A program made the translations under genes and the position numbers. From Candidatus Tanganyikabacteria bacterium (GTDB lineage: Bacteria; Cyanobacteriota; Sericytochromatia; S15B-MN24; VGJW01), in the NCBI GenBank assembly GCA_016867265.1, contig VGJW01000010.1, positions 1-35,524 on the forward strand: a stretch of 35,524 nt of DNA, read 5' to 3'. Positions 2,850-31,039 of this stretch are shown piece after piece (the stretch's first letter is position 1; every line of letters starts with the position of its first letter). Below the pieces are notes generated by a model. The model worked only from the letters and a program-made list of their open reading frames with translations, ran no database searches and was not told the DNA's origin.

Positions 2850-4101
2850 ACTGGGTGGGCATGGCCTTCCAGCCGAGGGCTTGGCTGGCCTTGATGCAGG
2901 CTTCACCCGGCAGGGTGCGAGCCCAGCGGGTCTTCTGCCCTTGGCGGACCCGGGTGGCGTGCAGGGGGGCTACCGCCTGCCGGATCCGGTTCACGATCAT
3001 GCCTGTCCGGGCTTTCAAGGTCCGGGTGCAGTTGAGTGCCAGCAAGTTCAACATCACGTGGCCCTCGATGCGCTGGCCGACGCGGTGCAGGCAGGGCCTT
3101 AGCTTCCTTGGGCTCTTGAACTCGCGATGGTTGGCTTCCACCTGCTGCAGCATCTGGTCGGCGTCCTGGACCTCACGCCCGAACCGGGGGGCGAGGGAAG
3201 TCCGCAGCAGCCGAGTCCCCGCGGCAAGGCGGGCCTGCCGGAAGCCTTCCTCTTCGGCCATGTAGCGACCGGCATCGGCAGAGTCCTTGCGTACCAATCT
3301 GGCATCGCCGGGCTTGCTGGCAAGGGCGCACAGGGCCTTGCCGTGCGGCTGGCCATCATCAGCCTTGGCCACGGCTTCCCGGACGGTGGCCCACATGACC
3401 TCCAGCTTGGCCAGCTGTCGCTCCCGCTCCTTGTTCTTGCCCGGCATACGCAAGGGCGCTTCTTCCTTGCCGAGGGATCGACCATCGGTCCCGTCGAAGG
3501 ATTCCCAGACGAGGGCATCGGTGCGTGCGGCCTCGGCCCGCGTCCTGTCCAGCCGCTCCTCGTCGCTGACATCCGTCTCGAGATGGACGTTGGTCGTGTC
3601 GACGAGGGTAATGCCCCTGAGTTTCTCGGGAGTGATGGCGGCGAGCCGGTCGTGCATAAGGTCTTCCAGTTCTCGCCAATGCCCGTGCAGCAGGTTCATC
3701 GCCCGATAGAAGTGCAGCACCTGTCAGCCGGTGCTTTGGTATGTAGGCGAGGTCAGCAGCCCAGTGGTTGGCGGCGACAAGCTTGCCCTGGGGGTCAACC
3801 AGACGGTTCCAGACCATACAGAAGACGAGCCGCTCGAAGTCGACGTCCTGCGGGTGATGTCTGGCGAGGTCGAACAGGGCCTGCCTGATGGCCCGGTCAT
3901 CTCACACTGCCTCGAGCATAAGCCGCTTGTGCAGTTGCTTACTTTCCAGCGTTTCGACGGGGCGGGCTGCCGAGACTTGCTGGCTGCCGTATCCACCCAC
4001 ATGACTGGCAGCGCCGGGTCCAGCCCGGGCAGGGCACGGGCGAGCAACGGCGCCAAATGCGCGGGGGCAACGCGCAGCAACTCGACCAGGACCTTGTGCA
4101 A
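2850..4101 (-). pseudogene. Decayed IS1634-like (IS4/DDE superfamily) transposase
   Basis: Read on the minus strand, the pieces form one degraded transposase. The N-terminal part (about 4101-3960) is in one frame. A second frame carries SKQLHKRLMLEAV, then an in-frame TGA at about 3902, then RQALFDLARHHPQD and VWNRLVDPQGK. Near 3725 the frame shifts again and continues with HFYRAMNLLHGHW, VDTTNVHLETD (first catalytic Asp region), HREFKSPRKLRP and QRIEGHV (the Glu region and family signature of IS1634-like enzymes), and TRWARTLPGEACIKASQALGW, where the family normally ends. At least two frameshifts plus one stop mean it cannot make an active enzyme. No terminal inverted repeats or target duplication were identified. 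Family assignment rests on motif order only. Confidence 0.75.
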
Positions 4102-25553: not shown

Positions 25554-26750
25554 TCAGGCCAGCTGCCGCGTCTCGGGCCCCTGGAACAGCCCGGCAACCT
25601 TGTCCCGCACCTTGGGCCAGGCCTCACGGGCGAAGGACCACGCCGTCAGGCCCACCTGGCCCGCGCTGGCCGCGATGTAGGCCCCCCGCAGGAACAGGCT
25701 CTGCGGCAGGAGATACAACGTAAGCTTGAGGGCGCCGAGGGCAACGAGCAAGCCCTGGCGGACCCGATCACCCGTCGTGGCCTTGGCATCCTTGGCCAGC
25801 TTGACCATGTGGACGCTGTCCGCGATGACCATGCCGACGTCCGCCACCGGCAACAGCACCTTCATCACGCGACCGAGGGCACCCGCGACGCGACCCAGCA
25901 GGGAACCCCCGACCGAGGTACCCGCCTGTGCGCCACGCATGAGGCCATGAATCGTCTCGAGGCCTGTCCGGATGCCGTTCCCGGCGATGATGACACCAGC
26001 AGCACCACGCGTGGTGTCCGCCACGGCATTGGCCTTGTCCATGTTGCTGGCTGACGGATTGTCGAGGACGTCCATCATCCGGCCGCCTGCGGCTACCGTA
26101 CCCTTGACGAGTCCGGGCAGCGTCACGACCCCGAGGCCGACGCCAGCAACCGAACCGGCAAAGGCGACGGTTCGGGTCAAGGGTGCCAAGGTCTCGTTCG
26201 TACGGCCCAGCAAGTGCATCAGCGGCCGCGCAGGCTGCGTCAGCTTGCCGTAGACGGGACTGGCCGAGAGATAAGCCCGGTCAGCGGCACTCATCGACGA
26301 CAGCAGCTTGCTCTGCTGGTCAACGAAGGTGGCAGCGCTCTGCGTCGCCTTGGCCGAGGCCAGAATCCGCATCGAGGTGGTGGCGTACGGGTCCAGCAAG
26401 ACGCGCTGCAGGTCGTTGAAATCCCGGATGGCAGCTTCATGGGACCGCGCCAGGCCGGCGACGGAACTGGCAACGTCAGCGGTCCTGGAAACCTTGCCCA
26501 GAACGGGATGCTCTCCGGGTTGACTCGTACCCTTAGGTTCCGCACCGACGACCACGCCGCCCCCGGCCCGGACCCGAGTTTCGCGCTGCAATTCCTTGAG
26601 GGCACGCGCCGTGTCGGCAAGACCAACAGCCGTATCACCGAGGGTGCCCAGCAGGGGTTGTGCGGCATCGGTTGCCAGCCGACCGATGACTTCTTCCGTC
26701 CGGGTCGGCAGAACGCCGATCCGAGACTTTCGTGTCACCGCTCCAGACAT
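25554..26750 (-). CDS. Unrecognised 398-residue protein with hydrophobic segments
   Basis: No family was recognised. The N-terminal 200 residues are helical and Ala-rich (DTAVGLADTARALKEL, then VSRTADVASSVAGLA). The second half has several Gly/Ala/Val hydrophobic stretches: GSVAGVGLGVVTLPGLV, RGAAGVIIAGNGI, VLLPVADVGMVIADSV, LLVALGALKLTLYLLP and GAYIAASAGQVGLTAW. It has no signal peptide. It may insert in a membrane or form an amphipathic helical bundle. The ATG follows a run of seven G that can serve as ribosome site. It is transcribed alone, toward the LecA-like gene. Codon usage looks like that of its neighbours. Confidence 0.75.
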   Translation of the reverse strand: MSGAVTRKSRIGVLPTRTEEVIGRLATDAAQPLLGTLGDTAVGLADTARALKELQRETRVRAGGGVVVGAEPKGTSQPGEHPVLGKVSRTADVASSVAGLARSHEAAIRDFNDLQRVLLDPYATTSMRILASAKATQSAATFVDQQSKLLSSMSAADRAYLSASPVYGKLTQPARPLMHLLGRTNETLAPLTRTVAFAGSVAGVGLGVVTLPGLVKGTVAAGGRMMDVLDNPSASNMDKANAVADTTRGAAGVIIAGNGIRTGLETIHGLMRGAQAGTSVGGSLLGRVAGALGRVMKVLLPVADVGMVIADSVHMVKLAKDAKATTGDRVRQGLLVALGALKLTLYLLPQSLFLRGAYIAASAGQVGLTAWSFAREAWPKVRDKVAGLFQGPETRQLA

Positions 26751-26829: not shown

Positions 26830-27714
26830 TCAGCGTGCGGCGGCCTGAACGGTCCGCGCCTCGGTCTCGGCCGAGATGCTCAGGCCGAAATCCTCGCAAG
26901 CCTGGCGCACCACGTTGTGGAAGAGCAGCATGCCCTCACCCTCGACGGGCAGGGTCCGGACGCCTTGCTGGAACAGGCGGACCTTCTTGGCCGTCCAATT
27001 CGGGTGATTGTTGAAGAACAGGTGCGCCTCCGGATGAGGCATCAGCCCGAAGATCCGGCCGGTCTCGTCGCACAGGCCGGCGATACCAGCCTCGGAACCC
27101 GTCGGATTGTCGGGGTGTTGCTGCGTGGCTTCGCCGTGGGCATCGGCAAACTGGAGGGGCACGTAGCCGTTGGCCAGAACACGCTGGCGGACATCATCGC
27201 CCAGCACGATGCGACCCTCGGCCGTGCGGCAAGGCAAGGTCAACTCGGTGAGTCCACGCGTGTAGACGCAGGGAGAATCGGCGTTGACGGCGAGCCGTAC
27301 CCAGCGGTCCTCGAACTGACCCGACGGGTTGGCCTCGACAAAGACCTCGGGCTCTCCGACACGGCCTTCGACCATGGGCAGAAGGCCCAGCTTGACCATC
27401 ACCTGGAAACCGTTGCCGATGCCCCAGATGAAGCGCTTGTCCTCGACGAAGCGGCTGAGTCGCGACCAGAAACCCTTGGTGACCTTGAGCTTGTCGGCCA
27501 AGGCACGACCCGCGGGCAGATGATCCCCGAAGGAGAACCCTCCCGGGAAGTTGAGGATGTGAAAGTCCTCGAGCGCGAGATCTCCCTCGAGGATATCCGA
27601 GAGATGGGCGACCGTGACGCGGGCTCCGGCCAACTTGTAGCCGTGGGCCATCTCCTGCTCGGAGTTGATGCCGTAGCCGGTCAGGACCAGCGCACGAACC
27701 CTTTTGTCGGTCAT
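26830..27714 (-). CDS. purQ: FGAM synthase glutaminase subunit PurQ, catalytic Cys replaced by Gly
   Basis: A 294-residue class I glutamine amidotransferase of the longer (Geobacter-like) PurQ type: RALVLTGYGINSEQE, ILNFPGGFSFGDHLPAGRAL, then FIWGIGNGFQVMVKLGLLP, and the His/Glu pair H227 and E229 in GLMPHPEAH. The nucleophile elbow normally reads GICNGFQ; here residue 100 is Gly (GGC codon). The Cys in GYGINCE of relatives is also Ser. PurQ supplies ammonia to PurL for formylglycinamidine ribonucleotide synthesis. As written, it cannot form the glutamyl thioester, so it would be inactive for glutamine or have another role. The rest of the fold looks intact. purL is not in the window. Confidence 0.85.
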   Translation of the reverse strand: MTDKRVRALVLTGYGINSEQEMAHGYKLAGARVTVAHLSDILEGDLALEDFHILNFPGGFSFGDHLPAGRALADKLKVTKGFWSRLSRFVEDKRFIWGIGNGFQVMVKLGLLPMVEGRVGEPEVFVEANPSGQFEDRWVRLAVNADSPCVYTRGLTELTLPCRTAEGRIVLGDDVRQRVLANGYVPLQFADAHGEATQQHPDNPTGSEAGIAGLCDETGRIFGLMPHPEAHLFFNNHPNWTAKKVRLFQQGVRTLPVEGEGMLLFHNVVRQACEDFGLSISAETEARTVQAAAR

Positions 27715-27777
27715 CCAGGAGGCTCCAAGCGGATCAAAGGATCATCAAGCGTTGCCATGATACAGCCGGAGCCCGTT

Positions 27778-28893
27778 TCAGGCGAATGAGAGCGGCTCGA
27801 TATCGTGGACGTGGCCTTCCTGGACGGCCGCGGCCGTGATCCGCAAGAAGCGCGCCCCCTTTTGCAACTCGGCGATGCTCCGGAAGCCGGTGTAGCCCAT
27901 GCCCTTGCGCAGTCCCCCCACGATCCGATGGAGAATCTCGGCCGCCGTGCCCTCGAGCGGGACCAGGCCCTCGACGCCCTCCGGGACGGGCAGGCCTGCC
28001 TCCGGGGTTTGGCGACCATAGCGATCGTTGCCCTCCTGCTGCAGGGCACCTAGGGAACCCATGCCGCGGTAACGCTTCCACATCCGTCCGGCTCGCTCGA
28101 GCGTCGGGGCCGCGCTCTCCGCGGCACGCGCGAGGAGACCACCGAGCATCACGATGTCGGCACCGGCACCGATGGCTTTGGTCAGATCACCGGGATGACG
28201 GATACCCCCGTCGGCAACGACCGGCACGCCATGCCGCCGGGCCTCGGACACGACGGCACGAATGGCCGTCATCTGCGGGACGCCGACCCCGGCGACGATG
28301 CGGGTCGTGCAGATCGATCCCGGACCGATGCCGACCTTGAGTCCGCATGCTCCTTCCTCGATCAGGAGCCGGGCGGCCTCGGCCGTGGCGATGTTGCCCA
28401 CCAGGACCTCGATGTCCGGCGCCAGCCTGCGCAGCGTGCGCAGGGCCTCGACGACATTGCGCGAATGACCATGCGCCGTGTCGATGACGAGCAAGTCGCA
28501 ACCGGCCTCGACAAGGCCCGAGGCGCGTTCCCTGACGTCACCCGCTCCGACGGCCGCCGCCACGAGCGGACGTCCGGCAGCGTCCAGGCTTGGCCTGCCG
28601 CCTTCCGGCAGCTTCGCCGCCTTGACCCGGGCCACCTCCTCAGCCTGGCGATCCGCAGGCATGTTGCGGTGGATGACACCGAGGCCACCTGCCAGAGCCA
28701 TCGCCAGGGCCATTGGCGCCTCGGTCACGGTGTCCATGGCCGCGCTCAGGACCGGCACGGAGAGCCGAAGGCCACGCGTGACCGGGCTCGAGAGATCAAC
28801 CTCGTGGGGCAGGAAGTCGGCATAGCCGGGGACCAGAAGCACGTCATCGAAGGTCAGACCCTCATCCAGGGCGGCGGCGTCGAGCGTCTTCAT
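27778..28893 (-). CDS. guaB: IMP dehydrogenase lacking CBS domains
   Basis: A 371-residue enzyme oxidising IMP to XMP. Landmarks are [64 protein letters not shown], the active-site loop GPGSICTTR with catalytic Cys, [17 protein letters not shown], and [12 protein letters not shown]. The usual Bateman (CBS pair) insertion of about 110 residues after HRNM is missing; only a short link ([19 protein letters not shown]) remains. CBS-less IMP dehydrogenases are known elsewhere and lack adenine-nucleotide control. ATG at 28893 follows GGGAG. It lies 5 bases after guaA. Confidence 0.93.
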
Positions 28894-28898
28894 CACGA

Positions 28899-30455
28899 TC
28901 ACTCCCACTCGATGGTCGCGGGCGGCTTGGGCGACAGGTCATACACCACCCGGCCGACACCCCGGACCTCCTCGACGATCCGGCCCGAGATGCGCAGGAG
29001 GGCATCCCAGGCGAAAGGATGAACCTGCGCGGTCATGCCGTCCTGGCTATCCACCGCACGCAGGGCAACGACATGATCGTAGCTGCGGCCATCGCCGACG
29101 ACACCGACGGACCGGATCGGCAGCAGGACGGGAAAGGCCTGCCAGACCTTGTCGTAGAGACCCTCGCGTCGCAGCTGGTCGGTGAAGACGGCATCAACCT
29201 CGCGCAGCAGGGCGAGGCGATCCGGCGTAACCTCCCCCAGGATGCGGATGGCAAGGCCCGGGCCCGGGAAGGGATGACGATCCACGAGGTGTTCCGGCAA
29301 GCTCAGGACGCGACCCAGATCCCGGACCTCGTCCTTGAAGAGATCCTGATTGGGCTCGACGAGCAGGCCTGCGGCACGCTTGGCCGCCACAAGCGGCGAA
29401 CCGACGTTGTGATGGGTCTTGATGGTTACGGCCGCCCCGGCAGTCCCATGCCCGGACTCAATGAGATCCGTTTGCAAGGTGCCTTGGGCGAGGTAGACCC
29501 GTCGGTCTCCCAGACCGAGGTCGCGAACCGCCTCTTCCTGGATGCGAATGAAGAGATCCCCGATGCGATGGCGCTTGACCTCGGGATCGGTGACGCCGGC
29601 GAGCGCCTCGAGGAAACGATCCTGCGCCTCGACCAGATGAAGGCGACGTACTCCGACCGCTGCCAGGGCCTGCATGACCTCGGCACTCTCGTCCTTGCGC
29701 ATCAAGCCGCTGTCGACATGCACGGCCACGACCTGTTCGGCCGGCAGGGCACGGGCCAGCAAGGCGGCGACCACTGTTGAGTCCACTCCGCCGGAAACGA
29801 GAACAAACACGGGATCCTCCCCGACTTGCGCACGGATGGCCTCGAGTCGGGCAGGCAACTGATCCCGGACATTCCAGTCGGGACTCAGGCCGGCAACACC
29901 AAACAGAAAGTTACCAAGCAACCTGAGCCCGCCTGGCGTATGCGTCACCTCAGGATGAAACTGTACGGCGGTCCGCAGGCCATCCTCGCGCGCCGCAGCC
30001 GCCAGCAGACCGGCTGACGTCCGTGCCAAGGCACGCCAGTTGCCAGGAAGCACGGCCACATGATCACCGTGGCTCATCCAGACCGGCTCCTCGTTGGCCA
30101 TGTCCGCCAAGAGTCCGTCCTGCTGCTCGCACCGGATCACGGCAGGACCGTACTCGCGCCGAGCACCCGGCTCGACCGAGCCTCCCTCCGTATGGGCCAG
30201 AAGCTGCATCCCGTAACATATCCCGAGCATCGGCTTGTCGAGATCAAGCACACCCGGGGCGGGTCGCAAACTGTCCGGACGGTGCACGCTGTCGGGACCT
30301 CCCGACAGGATGATGGCACCCGTTTCCGGACCTGCCAGCCTGTCGAGCGGCACGTCGTGGGGCAGGATCACGCTGCGGATACCCAGTTCGCGAACCCGTC
30401 TCGCGATCAGGCGCGTGTACTGGGAGCCGAAGTCGAGGATGGCAACGGTGGACAT
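28899..30455 (-). CDS. guaA: GMP synthase (glutamine-hydrolysing)
   Basis: A 518-residue enzyme making GMP from XMP. The amidotransferase domain has ILDFGSQYTRLIARRVRELG, the nucleophile Cys in MLGICYGMQLLAH and VQFHPEV. The ATP pyrophosphatase domain has FVLVSGGVDSTVVAALLA, DSGLMRKDE, LAQGTLQTDLIESG and THHNVG. The dimerisation domain has RHPFPGPGLAIRILGE and ends with PPATIEWE. All key residues are present, in contrast to purQ nearby. It is followed 5 bases later by guaB, so IMP-to-GMP synthesis is one operon. Confidence 0.97.
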   Translation of the reverse strand: MSTVAILDFGSQYTRLIARRVRELGIRSVILPHDVPLDRLAGPETGAIILSGGPDSVHRPDSLRPAPGVLDLDKPMLGICYGMQLLAHTEGGSVEPGARREYGPAVIRCEQQDGLLADMANEEPVWMSHGDHVAVLPGNWRALARTSAGLLAAAAREDGLRTAVQFHPEVTHTPGGLRLLGNFLFGVAGLSPDWNVRDQLPARLEAIRAQVGEDPVFVLVSGGVDSTVVAALLARALPAEQVVAVHVDSGLMRKDESAEVMQALAAVGVRRLHLVEAQDRFLEALAGVTDPEVKRHRIGDLFIRIQEEAVRDLGLGDRRVYLAQGTLQTDLIESGHGTAGAAVTIKTHHNVGSPLVAAKRAAGLLVEPNQDLFKDEVRDLGRVLSLPEHLVDRHPFPGPGLAIRILGEVTPDRLALLREVDAVFTDQLRREGLYDKVWQAFPVLLPIRSVGVVGDGRSYDHVVALRAVDSQDGMTAQVHPFAWDALLRISGRIVEEVRGVGRVVYDLSPKPPATIEWE

Positions 30456-30482: not shown

Positions 30483-31039
30483 CTACAAGCTGCGACGTCC
30501 GCCATAGGTATCCGAGGACTGTCGCTCGATCCGGGTGAAGACCAGCAAGTGGATATCGCTCGAACCCGCCTGTCGAAGGGCCTGCGTGGCCAAGTCGAGC
30601 GTCGTGCCGGGGCAGATGGTGCCGTCCAGCATTGGACCTTGCGTCCCTTGACGGCATCCGTTGCAGTCACCTGCAACGTACCTCGGACCATTTCCTGCTC
30701 GGGATCGCCGTATTCGGAAATCAGACCTTGGCGATTCAGGATACCCACGGCCCTCGGTATGCCCGTCAGTTGGCTGAGCCAGTTGACCAGCAGATGCGTC
30801 GGGTCGTAGTCGACGCTGAATCCGGTCGAGGGTACCGGGATCAGCAGGTCCGGCTGCCGCAGCGACGGTGTCTCCTGCAAGGCGCTCTGGGCCCATCGGG
30901 ACAGCGCATCCACCAGATACCACTGCTTACGGTACTGATCGCGGTAGATGGCCTCACCCAGTAGGGTACAGCCGCCCTCGGGCCGATTGTAATGGTGGAT
31001 CGCATAGCCCAGATCCCAGCCGCCCGACAACGTGATCAT
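30483..31039 (-). pseudogene. ComF-like phosphoribosyltransferase, frameshifted
   Basis: ATG at 31039 has a good GGAGGAACC site. The first frame reads ITLSGGWDLGYAIHHYNRP, DLLIPVPSTGFSVDYDPTHLL and TATDAVKGRKVQ, then turns to nonsense. Near 30635 the neighbouring frame continues the same protein with MLDGTICPGTTLDLATQALR, QAGSSDIHLLVFTRIERQS and a TAG at 30483. Joined, it resembles ComF-type PRTases, where KGRKV leads into the ribose-5-phosphate loop (DD-x(3)-TG-x-T-L). A small deletion or sequencing error lies just inside this key loop. It stands between recF and guaA, 27 bases from guaA. Without the indel it would be a PRTase of unknown substrate. Confidence 0.65.

Follow-up and report, generated by a model that had tools for sequence, protein, structure and literature searches.

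Introduction

In human CPS1, the catalytic cysteine of the class-I glutaminase domain is replaced by Ser294; glutamine cannot be used and the enzyme runs on free ammonia (PMC4655335). The ORF75 vGAT pseudoenzymes of gammaherpesviruses are homologues of PFAS/PurL which are devoid of the catalytic triad (PMC6213852). In archaea, PurF' is an amidotransferase homologue lacking the nucleophile, while Memar_1841 has been described as a truncated and decaying PurQ-like gene (PMC3261824). A search of the open-access literature returned no report of PurQ outliving PurL or of an orphan PurQ in purine auxotrophs.

Here we describe a PurQ from Candidatus Tanganyikabacteria which has lost its nucleophile, its synthetase partner and the surrounding pathway. 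The gene lies in a 35,524-nucleotide stretch of DNA, analysed as a whole and called the window below, on contig C10 of the host assembly (G000). The data are best read as showing a PurQ that is orphaned and catalytically dead, in a bacterium that depends on salvage. The coordinates of the features are collected in Table 1.

Table 1. Coordinates in the window of purQ, of its diagnostic codons and of the adjoining features.
Feature	Position	Strand	Remarks
purQ	26830..27714	(-)	294 aa, intact ORF; orphan glutaminase subunit
C18S	27661-27663	(-)	
C100G	27415-27417	(-)	codon GGC, read from 27417 to 27415 on the reverse strand
H164T	27223-27225	(-)	ACG
Y189F	27148-27150	(-)	
N205T	27100-27102	(-)	ACG
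His227, kept	27034-27036	(-)	
Glu229, kept	27028-27030	(-)	
guaB-purQ gap	27715..27777	(-)	63 bp; purM-purL in this place in the sister genomes; remnant-free
guaB, IMP dehydrogenase (salvage/interconversion)	27778..28908	(-)	PF00478, 1e-135; directly upstream of purQ
guaA, GMP synthase	28899..30455	(-)	NF000848, 1e-184
prt, phosphoribosyltransferase-domain gene adjoining guaA	30407..31087	(-)	frameshifted

Identity and Active Site of PurQ

The purQ product belongs, by sequence family (Pfam GATase_5, PF13507, E = 2e-70) and by predicted fold, to the PurQ-type glutaminases. The NCBIfam PurQ/FGAM-synthase models match it at 1e-46 to 1e-35, under their equivalog cut-offs. Its AlphaFold2 model (mean pLDDT 91.7, pTM 0.91) has PurL or PurQ proteins as all of its best 20 Foldseek matches, with a TM-score of 0.77-0.79 against the PurL glutaminase domain; the nearest solved structures are this domain and T. 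maritima PurQ. The codon structure of the gene is normal (GC1/2/3 = 0.68/0.43/0.82) and a GGAG element is located 8 nt 5' of its ATG. From these comparisons the descent of the gene from PurQ is clear, while we do not claim that it functions as PurQ.

A reading of the window from its sequence only had described a PurQ without its catalytic cysteine, and the ORF, its strand and coordinates, Gly100 with its GGC codon, and the conserved His227 and Glu229 were all found as described. The nucleophile elbow is GIGNGFQ in place of G-[IV]-C-N-G-[FC]-Q, and the triad His and Glu are present within an MPHPE motif. In a set of 109 other loci gathered by similarity, some of which are duplicate fetches of one gene, the residue aligned with position 100 is Cys everywhere but in one locus, which has Ser. 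The alignment of sister genomes proposed in the sequence-only reading gave Cys in all four genomes of the same family (G001 to G004), the three examined by codon all using TGC, and Gly in the window genome. The Ser-bearing locus (L076:4045-4788) is the PurQ of a Phycisphaeraceae MAG which reads GISNGFQ and keeps other near-invariant residues such as HGEG; its relatives L079 and L080 have Cys at the nucleophile. A DNA-pattern scan for non-Cys elbows in 386 genomes of the phylum returned mainly short chance matches.

The nucleophile is not the sole residue concerned. An 83-row alignment contains 48 columns that are at least 97% conserved outside the family, and the window PurQ departs at four of them (C100G, H164T, Y189F and N205T). 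Each of the four sisters departs at none or one, and the median for the 78 other sequences is 0. E. coli PurL has the same residue at each of the four positions (C1135, H1196, Y1222 and N1238), so the residues are ancient. Within the family, these four changes and C18S are found only in the window genome. C18S was considered as a second mark of catalytic death and rejected, because E. coli PurL carries Ser there. Judging from their conservation, the lost near-invariant residues would serve catalysis or glutamine binding. As structures of FGAM synthase contain a thioester on the active-site Cys, showing why C100G should abolish glutamine hydrolysis (PMC3815217), a PurQ which has lost this nucleophile together with three further near-invariant residues is predicted to be unable to hydrolyse glutamine by the class-I mechanism. 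This agrees with the earlier suggestion of a dead amidotransferase.

It had also been proposed that the glycine is a base error, the true codon being TGC and the nucleophile being kept. GGC and TGC are one base apart, the GGC call comes from a single assembly, and the prt frameshift lies 3 kb off. However, codon 164 has changed from CAC or CAT in the sisters to ACG (three base changes from CAC) and codon 205 from AAC or AAT to ACG (two base changes from AAC), so the site has degenerated whichever base is read in codon 100, and a sequencing error cannot by itself account for its state. Such an error would, moreover, leave the missing pathway described below unaccounted for and give an active PurQ no PurL to serve, and the four PF00117 glutaminases of the host genome all keep their Cys. 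We thus hold a base error to be very improbable and, within the limits of one assembly, Gly100 is real.

Loss of the Purine Pathway

The host assembly comprises 2.85 Mb in 41 contigs and is 98.2% complete and 0.34% contaminated. The second purQ or fused purL which the sequence-only reading had suggested looking for was not found elsewhere in this genome, which encodes one PurQ only. PurL was absent from it in searches with the TIGR01736 HMM and with a 1017-aa PurL query from the same-family genome G003, and a search for divergent PurL or PurM by the AIRS_C domain gave two matches only, SelD and ThiL. Using concatenated E. coli enzymes as queries, PurF, PurD, PurM, PurH, PurC and PurE were likewise absent, the only matches in the host genome being PurB and an N-terminal amidotransferase (GlmS-like by length). 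The PurF, PurD, PurM, PurE, PurC, PurH2 and PurH1 proteins of G001 retrieved only the GlmS-like match. In G001 and G002 both query sets do find the pathway, so these searches for PurF, PurD, PurM, PurE, PurC and PurH work at such a distance. Strictly speaking, the genes might have been relocated into the missing 1.8% of the MAG.

These absences, which the sequence-only reading had not noticed, bear on the third earlier proposal, a structural partner of PurL supporting FGAM synthesis on free ammonia. Human CPS1, in which Ser replaces the catalytic Cys and free ammonia is used, provides a precedent (PMC4655335), but neither PurL nor any other of the dedicated steps searched for was found in the host genome. 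Because PurL is absent, this proposal fails unless purL resides in the unassembled fraction, and we consider it scarcely credible.

The enzymes of salvage and interconversion are present in the host genome (PurA, PurB, GuaA, GuaB, Hpt and Apt), as is Prs. The host bacterium would be a purine auxotroph depending on salvage. Its four PF00117 class-I glutaminase proteins (L138 to L141) are a CTP synthase-like protein, GuaA, a gamma-glutamyl-GABA-hydrolase-like protein and one further member; GuaA has retained its own Cys within GICYG. No match to CarA, TrpG or HisH was seen among them, suggesting a wider auxotrophy. In four genomes of the same order (G006 to G009), neither PurL nor a GATase_5 protein was found, and loss of the purine pathway seems to be recurrent within the order.

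Synteny of the Locus

In G001, a single contig carries purH1, purH2, purC, purE, purB, purD, purF, guaA, guaB, purM, purL and purQ, with prt beyond. In G002, the order is purF-guaA-guaB-purM-purL-purQ, with a lipoprotein-like ORF also found in the guaB-purM interval, followed by homologues of the gene at 25554-26750 of the window and of a HEAT-repeat gene. The window has the order prt-guaA-guaB-purQ and then the same two downstream genes as G002. As guaB and purQ are 63 bp apart in a conserved locus, the synthesis genes have been removed and not just missed by the assembly. The gene at 25554-26750 (minus strand) encodes 398 aa with no Pfam match and is kept behind purQ in G002 with 38% identity.

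The prt gene has its N-terminal part in one frame and its C-terminal part in an ORF at 30483-30923. In G001 (L150) and G002 (L152) it is unbroken and adjoins the purine cluster there. The frameshift in the window may represent decay or an assembly indel. Across the window, an Rfam scan found no RNA element and promoter and terminator scans remained at or below chance; a stem-loop 3' of purQ was no stronger than in shuffled sequence.

In one contig of G004 (L155, G004:C239; region 3212-3346), only the last 28 residues of PurL are left, flanked by purM and by a purQ whose product has Cys. This arrangement could possibly represent an independent loss of purL by clean deletion or, lying on a 4.7-kb contig with a coverage of 1.06 in an 86%-complete bin, an assembly artefact. 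As this contig is weakly supported, we set the case aside.

Evolutionary Constraint and Fate of PurQ

The window PurQ is about 70-72% identical to the PurQ of the sister genomes. The ratio of protein distances (G000-to-sister over G001-G002) is about 1.6 for PurQ, 1.6 for GuaA and 2.4 for GuaB, which reveals no PurQ-specific acceleration relative to GuaA and GuaB. In the PurQ tree, the host sequence groups within the family (support 86/78); its terminal branch measures 0.32, compared with 0.17 for G001 and 0.11 for G003, a difference that fits a lineage evolving faster in general. Unique deviations at sites conserved in E. coli amount to 14/85 in PurQ, 31/219 in GuaA, 30/172 in GuaB, 31/193 in PurA and 29/161 in PurB. 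By this measure, PurQ is overall as constrained on the host branch as the functional salvage enzymes, and has been under constraint during most of its history. Simulations of neutral drift indicate that about 35 substitutions are needed to reach changes at 4 of the 48 near-invariant sites, and that the probability of meeting neither a stop nor an indel by then is 0.05-0.41, varying with the assumed indel rate. Given such values, both a recent relic and retention for a non-catalytic role are possible. Calling purQ a pseudogene at present was rejected, as its 294-aa ORF is intact and its rate is not accelerated relative to GuaA and GuaB; a recent relic which has not yet decayed still fits.

Collectively, these data point to PurQ as a recently orphaned relic with a still unbroken ORF, the last specific component of a de novo purine pathway that has otherwise disappeared, a reading to which we assign a probability of roughly 60%. 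Its pathway and partners are gone (PurL along with PurF, D, M, H, C and E), purM-purL has been cut out of a syntenic locus, the salvage set is present, the active site has degenerated at four near-invariant columns, and the neighbouring prt is frameshifted. The unbroken ORF and a branch constraint equal to that of functional enzymes speak against it, as does the frame-survival probability, which makes neutral decay possible without favouring it.

The events leading to such a relic may be outlined as follows. The ancestor of the family probably possessed a cluster resembling that of G001 (prt-purH-purC-purE-purB-purD-purF-guaA-guaB-purM-purL-purQ). In the host lineage, deletions would have removed purF with the genes adjoining it, upstream of guaA, and purM-purL from the guaB-purQ interval. 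Of the cluster, guaA and guaB would have been retained for salvage, and the operon-terminal purQ would have escaped. Without PurL, PurQ has no recipient for ammonia, and it has lost its nucleophile and the other near-invariant residues.

The same loss of catalytic residues with retention of the predicted fold is also what characterizes a pseudoenzyme. PurQ might have kept or gained a non-catalytic role after the loss of PurL, selection being relaxed on its catalytic residues but maintained on the fold; it could, for instance, act alongside GuaA and GuaB, which share its operon, in guanine-nucleotide salvage by binding a metabolite or another protein. This tentative alternative, the strongest competitor of the relic and one which we judge unlikely though worth weighing, is consistent with the intact predicted fold, a rate no faster than those of GuaA and GuaB, the normal codon structure and the unbroken ORF right behind guaB. 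However, the partner or function is purely conjectural, the constraint was measured over the whole branch with the periods before and after pathway loss taken together, and the adjoining prt is frameshifted. A reading that appears somewhat more doubtful still is that a class-I glutaminase subunit outlived its synthetase and pathway and took on a new, non-catalytic function, regulatory or structural, within the guaBA salvage operon.

Comparison With Known Systems

Taken as an orphaned and dead subunit, the window PurQ would be a clear natural case of an amidotransferase subunit parted from its synthetase, with its catalytic residues lost and its fold still constrained, and it shows one route by which pathway loss could yield a pseudoenzyme. 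Within this lineage of the cyanobacterial phylum, an orphan PurQ would also mark the loss of the purine pathway, and it calls for caution: a gene annotated as purQ is no proof of de novo purine synthesis.

The window PurQ is of the same family and predicted fold as the PurQ of the PurS/PurL/PurQ FGAM synthase, for instance chain D of T. maritima 3D54, and as the glutaminase domain at the C-terminus of large PurL (1T3T). It shares with the PurQ of FGAM synthase the triad His and Glu, but Cys has become Gly, the residues H164, Y189 and N205 are lost, and there is no PurL. Like human CPS1, it is a class-I glutaminase domain in which the catalytic Cys has been replaced; unlike the window PurQ, whose synthetase partner is gone, CPS1 keeps an attached synthetase. 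The archaeal genomes encoding PurF' and Memar_1841 still have the pathway and a working copy, whereas the genome described here has neither. Finally, the ORF75 vGATs are viral homologues of PFAS, reported to recruit the PFAS of the infected host, whereas the window PurQ is a bacterial stand-alone subunit.
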